Source: an uncultured Thermomicrobiales bacterium
GTDB taxonomy: Bacteria > Chloroflexota > Chloroflexia > Thermomicrobiales > CADCWN01
DNA: 38,685 bases
Assembly: GCA_902806415.1 (NCBI GenBank)
Contig: CADCWN010000285.1
Span: 1 to 38,685, forward strand
Reading direction: 5' to 3'
In this document: positions 9,305-27,558 of the stretch, one piece after another
Layout: each line of letters opens with the position of its first letter
How positions within the stretch are numbered: position 1 is the stretch's first letter
Translations under genes and position numbers: made by a program
Notes under the pieces: generated by a model
The model's input: only the letters and a program-made list of their open reading frames with translations
Told to the model about the DNA's origin: nothing
Database searches by the model: none

Positions 9305-9409
9305 AGTCGGTAGTCGGTAGTAGACAGGAACATAGAGGCGGTGCCTGCTTGCAGGCACCGCCTCGTCATAGGGTTCTACGGACTACGGACTACGGACTAC
9401 CGAACTACT
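9305..9409. repeat. Heptamer hairpin element B with an internal perfect hairpin
   Basis: AGTCGGT AGTCGGT AGTAG left; CTACGGA-type heptamers right (9376-9409); imperfect arm pairing. Confidence 0.75.
9335..9364. terminator. Perfect 14-bp hairpin between convergent transketolase-family gene and msrB
   Basis: GAGGCGGTGCCTGC-TT-GCAGGCACCGCCTC. Confidence 0.6.
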
Positions 9410-18924: not shown

Positions 18925-19596
18925 ATGGCGACGTTATTGATTGCCGATGACGATCGCAAGATCACCGATATGTTGCGGCGCACCCTCCTCTACGAGGGGT
19001 ATCAGGTCATCACCGCCGCCGATGGGCAGGAGGCGCTGGCGCAGATTCGGGCGCACCAATTCGATCTGATCGTCCTCGACCGGATGATGCCGGGGATCGA
19101 TGGCCTCGAAGTCGCCCGGCGCGTGCGCGGTGTCGATGCAACGCCGATCCTGATGCTGACCGCGCGCGACGCGATCGAGGATCGGGTCGCGGGGCTGGAC
19201 AGCGGCGCAGACGATTATCTGGTCAAGCCGTTCGCCCCCCAGGAATTGCTGGCGCGTATCCGCGCGCTGCTCCGCCGGGTCGAATCGCCGAACATGCCGC
19301 GCCCGCTCGCCTACGCCGACCTGCGCCTCGATCCGGCCACGCGCGAGACGCGGCGTGGCGAGCGCCGCTTCGACCTCAGCCCGAAGGAATTTGATCTCCT
19401 CTCGTACCTCCTGCGGCACGCACGGCAGGTCTTGCCGCGCGCGCGCATCATCGAGACGGTCTGGGGCGAGGATTTCTACGGCGACGACAACGTCCTCGAC
19501 GTCTACATCGGCTACCTGCGGCAGAAGACCGAGGCCGACGGCGAGTCGCGCCTCATCCAGACCGTGCGCGGCGTGGGATACGTTATCAGAGAGTAG
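18925..19596 (+). CDS. OmpR/PhoB-family response regulator
   Basis: LLIADDDRKITDML, DLIVLDRMMPGIDGLEV, LMLTARDA, DDYLVKPF; winged helix with IQTVRGVGYVIRE. Confidence 0.95.
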   Translation: MATLLIADDDRKITDMLRRTLLYEGYQVITAADGQEALAQIRAHQFDLIVLDRMMPGIDGLEVARRVRGVDATPILMLTARDAIEDRVAGLDSGADDYLVKPFAPQELLARIRALLRRVESPNMPRPLAYADLRLDPATRETRRGERRFDLSPKEFDLLSYLLRHARQVLPRARIIETVWGEDFYGDDNVLDVYIGYLRQKTEADGESRLIQTVRGVGYVIRE

Positions 19597-19705
19597 TCGC
19601 TAGTCCGTAGTCCGTAGTCCGTAGTGGTTACGATGGCGCTACGTGCGCTTCAAGCATATGGTTGGCCGCGAGAAACTACGGACTACGGACTACGGACTAC
19701 GGACT
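19595..19705. repeat. Heptamer hairpin element C
   Basis: Left arm 19595-19625 (AGTCGCT then 3x AGTCCGT then AGT) and right arm 19675-19705; 31-bp inverted repeat, 2 mismatches; 49-nt loop. Confidence 0.9.
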
Positions 19706-19719
19706 CACCCAGGGGGGCC

Positions 19720-21144
19720 ATGTCCATCCGTCTCCGCCTGACCCTGCTCTATACCGCGATCCTGGCGCTGACGCTGCTGACATTCAGCGTGGTGCTCTAC
19801 ATCACGGTCGATCGAACCACGTTCGGGGTCCTGCAAGATGGGTTGAAGGCCGACGCAGCCCGGCTGACCGATGCGAAAGATTTCAAGTTGTCGAATGTGG
19901 CCTATATCCCGGCGGCCAAGGGTTCGACAAACCCGTATGTCGAAACCCTCGATCTCGTCGGTAATCTGCGCGATCGCACGGCGAATACCATTTACGAAGG
20001 GATCGAACTGCCCCCGCTCGGGGACAATGAATTGCGGCAACTCCGCGGCACCGAGCCGGTCTATAGTCAGGTCACGCTCGGATCCGACCGCTGGCTCGTC
20101 TACAACGTCCCCGCGAAGGACAGCACGGGCAGGGAAGGGATTGTGCGCGTCGCACGACCAATAGACAACCAACTCTCCTCGCTCGAAACTTTGCGCCGCT
20201 ACCTGATTATCGCGGGGGTCATCGCTGTGGCGCTCGCGTTTGGCGTCGGGTTTCTGCTGGCGCGCACCGCCCTGCGGCCGATCGGCCAGATTACCGCGAC
20301 CGCCCGCGCGATCGAGACGAGCCGGGATTTCGGGCGGCGCGTCGATCACCACGGGCCGGAGGACGAGGTCGGGCAACTCTCCACCACGCTGAACGCGATG
20401 CTCGCCGCGCTCCAGGCGGCGTATCAGCAGACCGAGGGGGCGTTGCAGGCGCAGCGGCGTTTCATCGCCGACGCCTCCCACGAGTTGCGCACCCCCCTGA
20501 CGACGATTCGCGGCAATCTGGGCCTCCTCGGTCGCACTCCGCCGATCGGCGAGGACGACCGGCGCGCGGCACTCGGCGATATGGTCGAGGAATCGGAGCG
20601 GATGAGTCGACTGATCGACAATCTGCTGGCCCTCGCCCGCGCCGACTCGGGGATGCCGCTGCGCGCGCTCCCCGTCCCGCTCGAGCCGTTGCTCGCGGAT
20701 GTTTGTCGCCAGGCGCGACTGATCGCCCCGGGCCGCGCGATCGCCTGCTCCAGCCCGCTGGCCGCCGCGCTCGGCGATCCCGATGCGCTGAAGCAGACGT
20801 TGCTGATCCTGCTCGACAACGCGATCAAGCATACGCCGGCCGAGGCCGATATCCAGATCACTGGCGGGGCCAACGTGCGGGAGGTGACGATCGCCGTGCG
20901 GGATGGCGGGCCGGGGATCGCGCCAGCGATTCGCCCGCACCTCTTCGAGCGCTTCTCGCGCGCCGATGTCGCGCGCACCGGCGGCGGGGCGGGCCTCGGG
21001 CTGGCGATCGCCCGCGCACTGACCGAAGGGCAGGGCGGCACGATCGCGGTGGAGAGTATGCATGGTCAGGGCAGCACCTTCACCGTAACCCTCCCGCGCG
21101 CCGCGCTCGACCCTGTGCTCCCCTCGATCGCCGCCGGGCAATAG
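19720..21144 (+). CDS. Sensor histidine kinase with HAMP domain
   Basis: N-terminal TM, HAMP, FIADASHELRTPLTTIRGNL, NAIKHTP, GGAGLGLAIARAL; start at ATG 19720 behind AGGGGGG. Confidence 0.95.
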   Translation: MSIRLRLTLLYTAILALTLLTFSVVLYITVDRTTFGVLQDGLKADAARLTDAKDFKLSNVAYIPAAKGSTNPYVETLDLVGNLRDRTANTIYEGIELPPLGDNELRQLRGTEPVYSQVTLGSDRWLVYNVPAKDSTGREGIVRVARPIDNQLSSLETLRRYLIIAGVIAVALAFGVGFLLARTALRPIGQITATARAIETSRDFGRRVDHHGPEDEVGQLSTTLNAMLAALQAAYQQTEGALQAQRRFIADASHELRTPLTTIRGNLGLLGRTPPIGEDDRRAALGDMVEESERMSRLIDNLLALARADSGMPLRALPVPLEPLLADVCRQARLIAPGRAIACSSPLAAALGDPDALKQTLLILLDNAIKHTPAEADIQITGGANVREVTIAVRDGGPGIAPAIRPHLFERFSRADVARTGGGAGLGLAIARALTEGQGGTIAVESMHGQGSTFTVTLPRAALDPVLPSIAAGQ

Positions 21145-21259
21145 CCGAGTTCCCCGCTCGTTGTTCGCACCATCCAGGGTGTTGGCTGCGATGTGCTATC
21201 TGCGTGGGTAGCACGTCAGCCGCCCGTGCCGCGAACCCCTCAGACGGTCGGATGGCGCT

Positions 21260-21325
21260 CTTAGCTCCCTCTCAGCTTCTCCTCAGCGAACGCTCAGCGG
21301 ATCATCAGCGAAATCTCAGTCTCGG
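21260..21325. promoter_or_regulatory. Tandem OmpR/PhoB-type half-site array (6 copies, exact 11-bp period)
   Basis: CTTAGCTCCCT CTCAGCTTCTC CTCAGCGAACG CTCAGCGGATC ATCAGCGAAAT CTCAGTCTCGG. Confidence 0.75.
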
Positions 21326-21499
21326 TTTAAAGAACTCACAGTTTCCCACCCTATCCTTCATTTAGGTGGTGGTGCAACGGGGCGAGCAACGTGACCGACG
21401 ACTGGAAATCGTGGTGTACGAAGTCCCTCGCCGATCGCTTTGTAGATGGATCACCCTGCCCCTGGCAGAGCGGCATATGATTGCGGAAGGCGGCCAACC

Positions 21500-22159
21500 A
21501 TGACGACCACAACCATGACCCCCGACCCTGAACTCGACTTACTCGACGATCTGACCCTTCTGGGCGAGGCGCAGCGTGGCTCGACCGGCGCCTTCAACGC
21601 CCTGGTGCGACGATACGAACGGTCTGTCCATAACGTGGCGGTCCGACTCGTCGGGCGTACCGGGGCGGCGGACGAGGTCACCCAGGATACATTTCTGCGC
21701 GCGTACAACGCCCTCGATCGTTTCCAGGGCGGCGATTTCCGCCCGTGGGTGCTGCGGATCGCGACGAACCGCTCCTATGACGAACTGCGGCGGCGGCGGC
21801 GCGCGCCGGACTCTTTCGAGGAATTGGCGTACGAGCCGCCGCTGGCCTGGACCACCCTCTCGCGGCACGAAGACCCGATGGCGCGCGTGGAACGCCTCGA
21901 ACTTGCGGAAACCCTGGCGGCGGCGTTGGCGCAACTCCCATTCGACCAGCGGGTTGCCGTCGTCCTCAGCGACGTGCAAGGCTACCCGTATGACGAAATT
22001 TCCACGATCATCGGCGTGCCATACGGCACGGTGAAGTCGCGGCTGAGTCGCGCCCGCGCGCGTCTGCGAACCATCCTGGGTGGGCGCGAGCAGCCCGATA
22101 GGCGACGCACGCCTGTCGGCGGCGAGCATCGGTTCGCCGCGACGAAAGTGGCGAGTTAG
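21500..22159 (+). CDS. ECF sigma factor (sigma-E-like)
   Basis: GAFNALVRRYERSVHNVAVRLVG, DEVTQDTFLRAYNALDRFQGGDFRPWVLRIATNRSYDELRRRRR, LPFDQRVAVVLSDVQGYPYDEISTIIGVPYGTVKSRLSRARARLR. Confidence 0.95.
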   Translation: MTTTTMTPDPELDLLDDLTLLGEAQRGSTGAFNALVRRYERSVHNVAVRLVGRTGAADEVTQDTFLRAYNALDRFQGGDFRPWVLRIATNRSYDELRRRRRAPDSFEELAYEPPLAWTTLSRHEDPMARVERLELAETLAAALAQLPFDQRVAVVLSDVQGYPYDEISTIIGVPYGTVKSRLSRARARLRTILGGREQPDRRRTPVGGEHRFAATKVAS

Positions 22160-22432
22160 CGCGCCGCCGACACATCTTCGTTCGGGCCGATCTCCATCCT
22201 GGGCAAGCGGTTCAAGGAGACTAGCAAGCGCGGCTACGCGCCGTGGTGGTTCGGGCGACAGTCGGGATGGAGTAGCGGCATGGGTCGCGTTCTACCCCTA
22301 CTGGCGCCTCTTCCACAGCGCCGCCTCGCCGTCATCGACCAGCACCGGCGGGAGTTTCTGGCCTACCCAGTCGCTACAGCGTCCCGCGCGTGCTGCTGAC
22401 TGTGGGAGGGGAGATGGAAGTCGCCACGACCC

Positions 22433-23884
22433 TTATAGTCCGGTCAGTTCGCGTCCGCGTGTGAGTAACTCCTGCACCCGTTCCGGCGAGTGCGCCTCGG
22501 CATACAGGCGCAGCACCGGCTCGGTGCCTGAGAACCGGATAAGCAGCCAACTGCCATCCTCCAGGAGGTATTTGAGGCCGTCGTCATCTTTGAGCCGGAC
22601 GATCGGCACCCCGGCCAGCCGTTTCGGGGCTGCGGCACGAATCCTAGCCGTCGCGGCGTCGGCCTGCTCGGGGTGACAAGGGAGGTCGAGACGCTCGTAG
22701 GACCACTTGCCGACGCGCGCTTCGAGTTCGGTGAGGGCGGTATCGAGCGTCCCGCCGCGACCGACGACCAGTTCCAGGAGGAAGAGCGCGGAGAGGATAC
22801 CGTCGCGGTATGGCACATGGTTGCGGAAGGCGAAGCCGCCGGTTTCCTCCCCGGCGATGATCGCGTCGTGCTCATGGAAGACCGGGGCCATCGCCGTGAA
22901 GCCGACCGACGTCTCGAAGACCGGCACATTGAAGTGTTCGGCGATAACGTCGATCATCGCCGTGCCGTTCAGCGATTTCACGATCGGCCCGCTCCAGCCG
23001 CGCGTCTCCAGCAGGTAGAGGGTCAGCAGCGCGAACAGGGTCTGCCCATTGATATAGGCACCATCCCGACCGATCACGCCGAGCCGATCGGCGTCACCAT
23101 CGAGCGCGAAGCCCAGGGCAGAGTTGCCGTCTTGCACCACGCGCGTGAGTCGGCCGAGATTGGCAGCGATCGGCTCCGGCCCGCGAATATTCGGGAAGAG
23201 TGGATTGGCGACGCCGTTCATCTCGATGATCTTCGTCGCCCCTTCGGCGAAGAGCGCGGGGAGAATGCCGGCACCGGAGCCGTACATCGCGTCCACGACG
23301 ACGGTGAGGCCGGCACCGCGCAGGGCATCGAGATCGAAATGCTGCCGCAAGCCTTCGAGATAGCTCTCCAGCGGGTTGATCCGATCGAGGTTCCCGTCGT
23401 CCTCGGCGGCGTCCAGCGCGCGGCGCGGCGGCTCATCGCCGCTCGCCGCGAGGGTGACCAGGCGATCCTCGATCGCGTGCAGGAATGCGGCGGAGGCCGG
23501 TGCGCCGTTCTGTGCGTGGATCTTGATCCCGTTGTACTGGGCGGGGTTGTGGGACGCGGTGATGACCATCCCACCGTCGGCCCCGCGCTCGACGATCGCC
23601 TGGCTGACCACCTGCGATGGGATCGGACGATTGCAGAGATAGACGTGGATATCGTGCGCAGCGAGGACTTCGGCGGCGGCGGCGGCGAAGCGCGCCGAGT
23701 TGAAACGCGTATCGTAGCCGATGACGAGCGCAGGTGTGTCGGCAGTATCCCCAGTCTCCAGCGCGCTGCGGGCGCGGAGTTCGAGGGCGAGCGCCTGGCT
23801 CACCCGGCGGACGGCGGCGAACGTGAAGTCCTCGGCGATGATGCCGCGCCAACCGTCTGTTCCGAAACGCGGCGCGTCAGGCAT
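22433..23884 (-). CDS. Phosphoglucomutase/phosphomannomutase family protein
   Basis: FGTDGWRGIIAEDF, MVITASHNPAQYNGIKI, ALDGDADRLGVI, GEETGGFAF, RFSGTEPVLRLY. Confidence 0.96.
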   Translation of the reverse strand: MPDAPRFGTDGWRGIIAEDFTFAAVRRVSQALALELRARSALETGDTADTPALVIGYDTRFNSARFAAAAAEVLAAHDIHVYLCNRPIPSQVVSQAIVERGADGGMVITASHNPAQYNGIKIHAQNGAPASAAFLHAIEDRLVTLAASGDEPPRRALDAAEDDGNLDRINPLESYLEGLRQHFDLDALRGAGLTVVVDAMYGSGAGILPALFAEGATKIIEMNGVANPLFPNIRGPEPIAANLGRLTRVVQDGNSALGFALDGDADRLGVIGRDGAYINGQTLFALLTLYLLETRGWSGPIVKSLNGTAMIDVIAEHFNVPVFETSVGFTAMAPVFHEHDAIIAGEETGGFAFRNHVPYRDGILSALFLLELVVGRGGTLDTALTELEARVGKWSYERLDLPCHPEQADAATARIRAAAPKRLAGVPIVRLKDDDGLKYLLEDGSWLLIRFSGTEPVLRLYAEAHSPERVQELLTRGRELTGL

Positions 23885-24379
23885 GGACACTCCATAGCCG
23901 TGCGGCGGACCTAGAGCACCGCCTCGGGTAGTTATCAATTTGTCGGTGCCTCTTCTCGTCGATCATCGCGATATTCGGATCGCGAAGGTGAGAAGGGGCA
24001 GCGCCGCGATCGGATGATACTCGCGCTGATGGTCGCTCCACGCGATCGGGGCCTCCCGCGTTGTGGGGACGGCACGCCGCATTGCGCCCCAATCTTCTGC
24101 CCAACAGCGATTGGCACGATTACTACCGCCGCTCCTCGGGACGCGCGCCACAGACACCCCTTCGTCGTTGTCCAGCGCCGCTCTTGGGCGGCGGGAGCGG
24201 TCGGCCCGTTGACCAGCCGTGGACAGTTCGCGAGCAGCATTGTCATCGTTTGCAGGGGAACGTCTGGTAGGCACGTATGAGGAAATAGGCTACCACAGGG
24301 GATCGTCGGGGACAAGGATGCGGTTATAGGAAATAGGTCCGTCCGTGCAAGTTTCGGGCCGGATGGGGTGGTCGGCACG

Positions 24380-24856
24380 CTAGAGGCGATCCAATTTTTC
24401 ATCGAGCCAGGAACCAAACAACCGCTCGGCCAGGCGTTGCCAATTGCCGCCGTTTCCGCGATCGACCATGCCCTGGCCTGTATCGACGCGAGGCGACTCG
24501 CCGTGCTGCTCCCTGTCGGCCCTGTCGCCACGACCGGCTGTTTCTGGTGCGTTGAATGGGGCCGAGGGGTCGAACGTGGGGAGATCGGTATAGAGTTCGA
24601 CCGCCGCCTTCGTCGCTTGGCGGGTTGAGGTGGCGCGCTCGGCGGCGCGCTCGGCAGCGATGACCTCGTAGGGGGAGCGACCGGCCAGATCGACGCGCGG
24701 TGTGAGCTGCCATTCGTGGTAAGCGCGAACGAACCAGCGTCGGCGATCGGCGAGATCGAGTGTCGCGCCCGGCGGCAGATCTTGGAGTGCACGGGAACAG
24801 CTGCGCACGAGATAGACCGCCAGTTCGCCGAGGAGACGTTTCTCTTGCGGCCCCAT
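24380..24856 (-). CDS. Hypothetical protein
   Basis: ORF from ATG 24856; WFVRAYHEWQLTPRVDLAGRSPYEVIAAER resembles small helical DUFs; Pro/Asp-rich tail. Confidence 0.5.
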   Translation of the reverse strand: MGPQEKRLLGELAVYLVRSCSRALQDLPPGATLDLADRRRWFVRAYHEWQLTPRVDLAGRSPYEVIAAERAAERATSTRQATKAAVELYTDLPTFDPSAPFNAPETAGRGDRADREQHGESPRVDTGQGMVDRGNGGNWQRLAERLFGSWLDEKLDRL

Positions 24857-25032
24857 GCGCTTCTCCGTCAACGCGGCTGATGCGAGCCGCCGCCCCCGCT
24901 CGTCGCCGCCCCGTCCATTGCCTGCTGACTCTGCCGATAATCGTAGCACGCGGATCGGGCTTTGCCAACGGGGAATCCGTGCGTGCCGACCGCCTCCGGT
25001 CGCCTGGGCGCTGTCTCTCCCATTGTACTCGT

Positions 25033-27558
25033 TCACGGCAAGCGGACGCTGACAAGCCCATCATCGGTGAGCAGATAAGCGGTGTTCGCCTTCTCGTCGA
25101 CCGCGATCTCACGCGCATTGGTGAACGTTTTCGCATCGGGTGCGGGTTTGTAGACGGTGATCTGCGTGCCATCGCGGCCCATCCGAACGATCCGGCCCTC
25201 CCGCGCATCGAGCAGATAGAGCCATTTGCCCTCGAGTGTCGAGGCGATCGCGGTCGCCCCCGCCAGCGGTGGCACCACCGCCGGGGATAGTGTTGCTTTC
25301 ACTTCGCCCTGATAGAGGTCGAGCACGCGCCCATCCGAGAGGAGCGCATAAATATCGGCGTCGATGGTGAAATCAACCGCCAGATTGAGATCGGCGTTCG
25401 TCTTCGACGACGACCACGGCTGTGGCGACTGATTGAAGGCCCCGGCTGCCCATTTGATGATCTGACCGCGTTCCGCTTCGAGAATGTAGAGATTGCCGAC
25501 GAAGCTCTCGACGGCGGTCGCCTTGCGGCCATTCGCCGCGAGCGGGCTCATCGTCCAGGCGCCGGCGTTGTCGCGCACGAAGCCTTGCGTCTCGCTATAG
25601 GCGAACAGGTTGGTCTCGCGCCAGGCGATGCCGAGCAGTGCGCCAGCGGCGGTGCCGCCGATCAGGTCGCCCTTTACCAGGATCTTCGTCAGGGTGCCAC
25701 GCCCATCGGCCAGGTACACCGTGCCATTGGCGAAGACATACTGCTTGCCACCCCCGACGACGATCTGCGGTCGGGCGTTCACGGCGAGCGCGCCGGGCGG
25801 CAATGCCCCGAGCACGTTGACGGCGTCCGGTGCGAGTCGCTGGATCCCGCCCACCTGATCCCTCGCCGCGTTGATCGCCGCCGCCTCGGCGGCGATCCGC
25901 TCCTGACGGCCCGGCTTGTCGGCGGCGGGGATATTCTTGAGTTGTTCGGGAAGGGCGAGGAGTTGTACGTGCGCGGCCTGGCGGTCGGGCAGCGCGCTTG
26001 CCGCTTCGCGTGCCTGGGCGACTTGCGCGAGGGCACCGTCGAAGCGCGCCTGCTCGACGCGCGCCTGATGGTTGCGGAGCGACACGAGCAGCACCGCCAC
26101 GAAGACGAGCAATCCCACCAGCAGAATCAACGGCAATGCCCGCCCGAACGGTAGCCCGCCCGCCCGATAGCGCTCCAGCCCACCGAGCGGCCAGACGCGC
26201 TTGCGCCCGTCGTCGAGATGGCGATCGTCGCGGCGACGCCCGCCCGATGGCAGAACCCGCTCCACAATCGTGCCGATACCGAGGAGCGGGAGCGCGACGA
26301 GGGAGCCGAGCGCGCCAAACGGATTCGCGCGGTGCGCGCGGCGGCGCGATGGGAGTATGTCATCGAGCGGGCCGTGCTCTGTGCCGCGCACGCCGCGCGG
26401 GGCGCTGTTCGCCGTCTGTGCGACCACGCGCTGGTGGTGGCGCTGCGGGGCCTCGACGTAGTCCTCTTCCCAACCTTCATCGCCTTCGTCGCCTTCGGCC
26501 CTGGTCTCGAATTCGGGTCGCAGGTGGCCCGTGGGAATGCTCATCGCGGAGATAGTCCGCTCGTCGTCGGTGCCACTTTCCAGGGCGTCGCGCAGTGTGC
26601 TGCCATCGTCGGACACCGCTTCCGCCCGAGCGGATTGGGGGCGAGTATGACGTTCGCCGAAGCGGGGCCAGGGGATGATCCGGGAACGTTCACGCATCTC
26701 CCGTAGATTGCGCCCAAACCACCCCTCGTCCTCAGTGGCCTCGCCGTCATCGGCAAGGGTGGTCGGCTCGTTGTCGTCCGACTCAGAGCCGTGATGGCTT
26801 GTCGGGTAGCCCGCGCCCTCGGTGATCGTCGGCGCGATCGACGTGGCATAGGCGGTCGCGAGTCCGTGCTGTTCGGAGAGATCGACCAGGAACTCGACCG
26901 CCGCCACTGGATCGTCCGCGAGCAGCGGCCCGAGGGCGCTCCCTTCTGGAAGAAGGCGTGCGATATTCGAGGTACACAGGGTGATCAGGTCGCCATCCTC
27001 CAGCGTGGCCCGGAAGAAGAGCGGGGCGGTCGCCTCGGTCGCCCCGAGCCCCTGCCGGTCGTCGCGCGCGTGCGGCTGGTAGTCGCTCGCCCAGGTTGCC
27101 AGATCGGGCAGGGTAATCGGTACCCCGCCCTGGGAGAGGATCAATTGCGTCGGCGGCACCTGACAGATCAGCACTTCCTCCGCGCGCACGAGGAGGCAGG
27201 TTAGCCCGAGGAGGACGCGATGACCGGGTGTGGTGCTGAGGTTCTGCTGGTAGAGGGCTAGATTGGCCGCGTCGATCGCCGTCGTCAAGGCGGTGAGCGG
27301 ATCGCGCGCCGCGCTCGCGGTGTAAATATCCCGGATCGCCTTGACCACACCGGCCCCGACCGACGCTGCTCGCGGAGAGTGCTCGACCGACTCGACGATG
27401 ACGCAGAGTTGATCCTTCGAGGCTCCCCGTTCACTAGACGCGACCTCCGCCACGAGGAGCCGTGGTGAACGCCCCTCGCCCTGGGCGTCGTCGGTGGAGA
27501 ACTCGGCCTGGCCCGCTTCGCCGGTGATGATCCTCGTGCGTTCGCGATTCGCTGTCAT
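25033..27558 (-). CDS. Predicted PP2C-fold pseudophosphatase - TM - beta-propeller protein
   Basis: PP2C-like N-terminus without metal-binding Asp; acidic linker; TM LPLILLVGLLVFVAVLLVSL; C-terminal NHL/WD-like repeats (KWLYLLDAREGRIVRMGRDG). Confidence 0.7.
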   Translation of the reverse strand: MTANRERTRIITGEAGQAEFSTDDAQGEGRSPRLLVAEVASSERGASKDQLCVIVESVEHSPRAASVGAGVVKAIRDIYTASAARDPLTALTTAIDAANLALYQQNLSTTPGHRVLLGLTCLLVRAEEVLICQVPPTQLILSQGGVPITLPDLATWASDYQPHARDDRQGLGATEATAPLFFRATLEDGDLITLCTSNIARLLPEGSALGPLLADDPVAAVEFLVDLSEQHGLATAYATSIAPTITEGAGYPTSHHGSESDDNEPTTLADDGEATEDEGWFGRNLREMRERSRIIPWPRFGERHTRPQSARAEAVSDDGSTLRDALESGTDDERTISAMSIPTGHLRPEFETRAEGDEGDEGWEEDYVEAPQRHHQRVVAQTANSAPRGVRGTEHGPLDDILPSRRRAHRANPFGALGSLVALPLLGIGTIVERVLPSGGRRRDDRHLDDGRKRVWPLGGLERYRAGGLPFGRALPLILLVGLLVFVAVLLVSLRNHQARVEQARFDGALAQVAQAREAASALPDRQAAHVQLLALPEQLKNIPAADKPGRQERIAAEAAAINAARDQVGGIQRLAPDAVNVLGALPPGALAVNARPQIVVGGGKQYVFANGTVYLADGRGTLTKILVKGDLIGGTAAGALLGIAWRETNLFAYSETQGFVRDNAGAWTMSPLAANGRKATAVESFVGNLYILEAERGQIIKWAAGAFNQSPQPWSSSKTNADLNLAVDFTIDADIYALLSDGRVLDLYQGEVKATLSPAVVPPLAGATAIASTLEGKWLYLLDAREGRIVRMGRDGTQITVYKPAPDAKTFTNAREIAVDEKANTAYLLTDDGLVSVRLP

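Follow-up and report, generated by a model that had tools for sequence, protein, structure and literature searches.

A tandem 11-bp array between a two-component system and an ECF sigma factor gene of a Thermomicrobiales bacterium: a putative operator that may have changed its target gene

Introduction

In the genome of an uncultured Thermomicrobiales bacterium, a run of short direct repeats with an 11-bp period lies between the genes of a two-component system (TCS) and the gene of an ECF sigma factor. The locus raises the question of which regulator would bind this array and which gene it would control. A first reading, made from the letters alone (the sequence-only reading), had proposed six half-sites in the geometry of OmpR/PhoB-family regulators, through which the adjacent response regulator (RR) would directly control the sigma factor. 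We examined this proposal in the window, that is, the whole stretch of 38,685 nucleotides analyzed, in the genome to which it belongs and in 60 relatives from the same order (61 genomes). To our knowledge, the route by which ECF sigma factors exchange an anti-sigma factor for a TCS is known from end states such as Streptomyces SigE only.

Results and Discussion

An eight-register array ends at a fixed distance from a -10-like hexamer

Pfam confirms all three neighboring genes, and with them the proposed placement of the array between an OmpR-type RR/histidine kinase (HK) operon and an ECF sigma gene. The locus comprises the following features, in which G001 designates a relative from the same family:

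18925 to 19596, + strand: OmpR-family response regulator, 223 aa, presumed activator (Pfam Response_reg, E 3.1e-31; Trans_reg_C, E 6.4e-28)
19720 to 21144, + strand: sensor histidine kinase, 474 aa, with HAMP, HisKA and HATPase_c domains (Pfam)
21260 to 21320, + strand: six strong units of 11-bp period, CTTAGC, CTCAGC (three times), ATCAGC and CTCAGT, a putative RR operator (sequence, shuffles)
21326 to 21330, + strand: seventh register TTTAA, degenerate, 2/5 match to CTCAG (TTTAC in the same register of G001)
21337 to 21341, + strand: eighth register CACAG, 4/5 match to CTCAG, promoter-proximal and in place of a -35 element (position matrix)
21352 to 21357, + strand: -10-like hexamer TATCCT, exactly 10 nt past the last unit (TATCCC in G001)
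21500 to 22159, + strand: gene of an ECF sigma factor of 219 aa, presumably driven by the array promoter (Pfam Sigma70_r2, Sigma70_r4_2)
22160 to 22432, no strand: stretch where relatives encode a zinc-finger anti-sigma factor, with no such open reading frame (ORF) in the window (profile search)

Letters and starts of the six units, re-read from the window, agree exactly with the earlier description (21260, 21271, 21282, 21293, 21304 and 21315, exactly 11 bp apart). All six are real, but the array had been under-counted, as two more 11-bp registers follow at 21326 and 21337. Registers 5 to 8 together with the -10 reach a position-matrix score of 25.7.

The strength of the repeat was assessed over the whole window with a motif-free statistic (6 units of 6 columns, any period from 8 to 14). 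The array scores 33/36 at 21260 with period 11; no other period exceeds 29 in the real window, and none of 300 dinucleotide-preserving shuffles of the whole window reaches the array score (0/300). The units are short, and the GC-rich genome contains other short tandem repeats, from which a functionless chance or codon-biased repeat could be imagined. We rejected this explanation and consider its probability negligible: the shuffle maximum is 31 against 33/36 observed, the array is non-coding, and, as described below, its co-occurrence with the TCS and its constant distance to the -10 contradict chance.

In PhoB-type promoters, a constant spacing separates the last 11-bp repeat from the -10, and the regulator binds where a -35 would otherwise lie. 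The window array shows both features of PhoB/OmpR-family class II promoters, head-to-tail 11-bp repeats and an end at a fixed short distance before the -10, replacing the -35. It differs from them in its unit, CTCAG-N6, and in having eight registers where two to four are usual. The array-sigma region yielded no consensus sigma-70 -35/-10 pair. The same layout bears on whether the array could be a repressor binding site, or a site at which the RR represses, as some OmpR-family regulators do where their sites overlap the core promoter (CutR at htrB, PMC12802291). Here, however, the units lie upstream of the -10 at the position of PhoB-type activation, and a promoter without -35 should need an activator; we regard repression as very improbable.

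The same layout recurs across the order

We searched the 61 genomes for three units (CTCAG-N6-CTCAG-N6-CTCAG, at most one mismatch), with the reversed pattern as control. In the window's own genome this pattern occurs at the window array (four overlapping frames) and once on contig C37, and the reversed control gives 0 matches; thus, the motif is not scattered in this genome, where scatter would have spoken against the sequence-only reading. Many of the 60 relatives contain the pattern, against hardly any matches of the reversed control. When 30 arrays were aligned on their last unit, A was found at +12 in 22/30 and T at +16 in 25/30, and the remaining downstream positions carried little signal. 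The downstream consensus is TAnnnT, a -10 at a constant spacing of 10 nt. The more stringent search for four CTCAG/TTCAG units, 10 nt and nAnnnT, with three mismatches allowed, gave 139 matches versus 3 for the reversed control (61 genomes, summed, overlapping frames counted). Judged from these alignments, the layout across the order is that of PhoB-type activated promoters, in line with the OmpR/PhoB geometry proposed at the outset: the period is 11 bp, and the arrays end exactly 10 nt before a TAnnnT-like -10.

The genes near these arrays are varied and include those for HtrA, a copper-type P-ATPase, multicopper oxidases, Hsp20, a phosphoesterase and the RRs themselves. This variety suggests that several related OmpR-type regulators probably share the CTCAG operator type.

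Within the window's own genome, two further sites were considered as array targets and rejected. C37:2322 has no in-register -10 and no close same-strand gene downstream, and C420:7056 has a TAGAGT -10 in register and no evident same-strand gene downstream. The latter site (G000:C420:7056-7109, L180), where four units are followed after 10 nt by TAGAGT, could be the start of a small RNA or a chance occurrence.

The array accompanies the two-component system

Orthologues of the TCS were picked by HK homology alone (>300 bits) in ten relatives (G001, G003, G007, G010, G013, G015, G016, G022, G032 and G036), in which the RR is 65-82% identical and the HK 47-53% identical to those of the window. 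An array with an in-register -10 lies within ~230 bp after the HK stop in all ten, only the G015 site having belonged to the matrix training set; for G001, the distance was taken from the coordinates of array and HK because frameshifts break the HK frame. Counting the window, the array follows the TCS in 11/11 genomes from at least three families. In G001, whose RR is 82% identical, the registers read CTCAG CTCAG CTTCA CTCAC ATCAG CTCAC TTTAC CTCAG, followed by 10 nt and TATCCC, an eight-register plan that nearly matches that of the window, weak seventh register included. The presence of the array after the HK in every orthologue chosen by homology, along with the matching plan of G001, indicates that it belongs to this TCS and travels with it rather than with the sigma gene. 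Loss of the array where synteny is kept, which would have spoken against the sequence-only reading, is not the case (10/10 present). The adjacent RR (18925-19596), which that reading had named as binder, is thus a well-supported candidate on comparative grounds.

The motif alone is not specific to one RR, since other OmpR-type RRs, 45-60% identical, also have CTCAG arrays nearby. The array might accordingly be an OmpR-family operator bound mainly by a paralogous RR from the same genome, of copper- or secretion-stress type, the adjacent TCS being a mere neighbor. The recognition-helix regions are similar across these RRs, and CTCAG/TTCAG arrays are widespread beside other TCSs, where they front copper ATPase, multicopper oxidase, Hsp20 and phosphoesterase genes. 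An association with the TCS in every one of the 11 genomes, across at least three families, would nevertheless be unexpected for a mere neighbor, and we consider a paralogous binder unlikely.

By class, the RR scores 221.8 bits against the PhoB model (NCBIfam TIGR02154), below its cut-off of 296, and its nearest solved relatives are PhoP and PrrA of Mycobacterium tuberculosis. The PhoP repeats are 9-bp degenerate motifs, unlike the window array (PMC3413638). An array upstream of the RR gene, as for autoregulation, was searched for in the window and no site was found. The gap between the RR and HK genes contains a 31-nt inverted repeat of (GTAGTCC)n (19593-19625 and 19675-19705, arms 94% complementary and 49 nt apart), which could represent a mobile or REP-like element or serve as a processing hairpin; a CTACGGA run at 9376-9400 of the window resembles it.

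In nine relatives, htrA follows the array

The gene that follows the array is htrA in nine of the ten relatives. In the tenth, G015, contig C418 stops ~180 nt past the array; joining it to the contig that carries the sigma gene (C436) was tried and rejected, no overlap of the ends being found. For eight relatives, those of family f3, the product is a trypsin-PDZ protease (HtrA), called by Pfam in two and by position and similar N-termini in the rest, the gene call being incomplete in G007 and G032. In G001, the array is followed by htrA, with frameshifts in the draft, and then by a MoxR/DUF58/BatA-like block. In the window, htrA is absent after the array. An HtrA-MoxR-DUF58-BatA block lies on contig C322 of the same genome, away from the TCS, and none of the five Trypsin_2 loci of this genome has an array (0/5). 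Because the order TCS-array-htrA is common to families f1 and f3, we infer that it is the ancestral arrangement. Solely through this link with htrA, envelope or secretion stress is suggested as the stimulus of the TCS.

The f3 loci also contain, next to the TCS, a divergent operon for a YceI-like protein or lipoprotein and a hydrolase (L123-L130), which at the better-called loci ends in an ECF sigma and an RskA-type anti-sigma gene and in several genomes has another array in front. This linkage would be a second, different coupling of the TCS to an ECF sigma factor.

That the ancestral neighbor was htrA raises the idea that the window array is a remnant htrA promoter, still bound by the RR, with the sigma gene using another promoter, for which the ~136 bp between the predicted start and the sigma ATG leave room; or else that the junction is an assembly error. 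The genome, the only one of its genus among the 61 analyzed, is a fragmented draft of 425 contigs, 92.6% complete, and the HK-array-sigma junction is carried by one contig. Yet array, phase and -10 are intact with no decay, and the search of the array-sigma gap for a consensus sigma-70 promoter, as given above, was negative. Moreover, the next best match of the 356-bp junction in its own genome is 37 bp at 81%, so that no repeat accounts for a false join, and a repeat-induced one appears unlikely. Both versions taken together, we find this explanation improbable.

The sigma factor gene lacks the adjacent anti-sigma gene of its orthologues

Identity to the sigma orthologue reaches 64% in G001 and lies at 41-55% in most other relatives, clearly set apart from the next paralogue; a protein search of the contigs of the window's genome with the sigma factor returned distant sigmas only. 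Conservation of the array upstream of orthologous sigma genes, which the sequence-only reading had put forward as a check, does not hold: no array was found in 600 bp, or the available shorter stretch, upstream of the sigma orthologues of 29 relatives (0/29), where the best matrix score is -8.6 versus 29.5 in the window. This absence arises because the sigma gene lies elsewhere in the relatives, not because the array was lost at the TCS.

All 29 relatives have an ORF for a zinc-finger anti-sigma factor within 1.2 kb downstream of the sigma gene (profile search, E no worse than ~1e-9; the profile was seeded from 14 of the 29, leaving 15 outside it). Because Pfam detects the zinc finger weakly, in one of two tested, the anti-sigma label of these ORFs draws on their position, their H-x3-C-x2-C motif and their conservation. 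No profile match to an anti-sigma factor or a remnant was obtained in six frames over window positions 21001-27000, and the best match of the G001 anti-sigma in the window's genome is weak (29% identity, E 4.6e-6). The sigma gene therefore has no cognate anti-sigma gene next to it, as in systems of the CseBC-SigE type, with the limit that in a genome 92.6% complete an anti-sigma gene could lie in the missing sequence. As in that type, the TCS is adjacent to the sigma gene, with RR, HK and sigma on one strand.

A model for the locus

The array, its register to the -10, its conservation with the TCS, the gene order and the lack of an adjacent anti-sigma gene are read directly from the DNA. Binding, its dependence on phosphorylation, the direction of regulation and the order of evolutionary events we infer. 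A signal received by the HK would lead to phosphorylation of the RR, dimers of which would occupy the eight 11-bp registers cooperatively, in head-to-tail order. As the proximal unit takes the position of a -35 box and is separated from the -10 TATCCT by 10 nt, the RR would act as PhoB does at class II promoters and recruit the housekeeping RNA polymerase. The polymerase recruited at TATCCT would then transcribe the ECF sigma gene at 21500, whose product would be active without an anti-sigma factor. Taken as a whole, we consider it probable that the array serves the RR as operator and is a former htrA promoter that now drives an ECF sigma factor devoid of anti-sigma.

In the lineage of the window, the htrA block would have been separated from the array, the sigma gene moved under it and the anti-sigma gene gone missing. 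An array facing a sigma gene without its usual inhibitor gene makes the sensor seem rewired to a new target, and this combination suggests that sequestration by an anti-sigma probably gave way to transcription under TCS control as the means of regulating the sigma factor. We lean, with some reserve, towards a rewiring within one family, in which a stress-induced htrA promoter was re-used for an anti-sigma-less ECF sigma factor whose orthologues in 29 relatives keep their anti-sigma. The presumed state before (sigma with anti-sigma, and TCS-array-htrA) and the presumed state after (TCS-array-sigma, no anti-sigma) would then be represented by two genera from a single family, which share the eight-register promoter.

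Comparison with known systems

Sigma-E of Streptomyces coelicolor is unusual in having no anti-sigma factor, its transcription being controlled by CseBC, for which the sigE promoter is seemingly the sole target (PMC6767563). SigQ with AfsQ1/Q2 is a second TCS-controlled case (PMC8999054). The window resembles both CseBC-sigma-E (ECF39) and AfsQ1/Q2-SigQ in an anti-sigma-less ECF sigma gene beside a TCS, control by the TCS being what we propose here. The gene order is different, sigE-cseA-cseB-cseC with a lipoprotein gene in Streptomyces versus RR-HK-array-sigma without cseA in the window, and at 178 bits the RR falls short of the cut-off of the CseB model (NCBIfam NF041733, 350 bits) and is not a member. 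The relatives of the window sigma also differ in keeping an anti-sigma factor, so the anti-sigma-less state looks lineage-specific. The best reading of these comparisons is that the window arrangement resembles CseBC-SigE but arose separately.

In M. tuberculosis, the OmpR-type TCS MprAB directly controls sigE, the HtrA protease gene pepD and an alpha-crystallin gene (PMC3062566). This is reminiscent of the TCS orthologues beside htrA in nine relatives, and in some also beside an ECF-sigma operon, whereas the window has no htrA at the TCS and SigE of M. tuberculosis has an anti-sigma. The MprA motif of Corynebacterium glutamicum is TKTTAAGAAM, not CTCAG (PMC12113857). CutRS-htrA3 of Streptomyces likewise pairs an OmpR-type TCS with an htrA target in secretion stress, with the CutR site being TAWATAAA and not a tandem CTCAG (PMC12802291).

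Use of the array rule and further loci

A narrow literature search found no RR binding motif for the order Thermomicrobiales. The rule described here (at least four CTCAG/TTCAG units at 11 bp, 10 nt, nAnnnT) is usable to predict TCS regulons across the order. At two loci (L104, G036:C33; L105, G003:C2), a stretch of ~14 kb beside a TCS contains three to four CTCAG arrays and their in-register -10s, in front of genes for a lipoprotein, a DUF5676 protein, an FAD enzyme and a copper-type P-ATPase, which looks like a complete metal-response regulon. In two other genomes (L120, G055:C191; L118, G019:C21), strong arrays lie directly upstream of a gene for an EVE-domain-like protein, and the -10 is followed by the conserved tail ATTGAGAAGTGAGACCAA.
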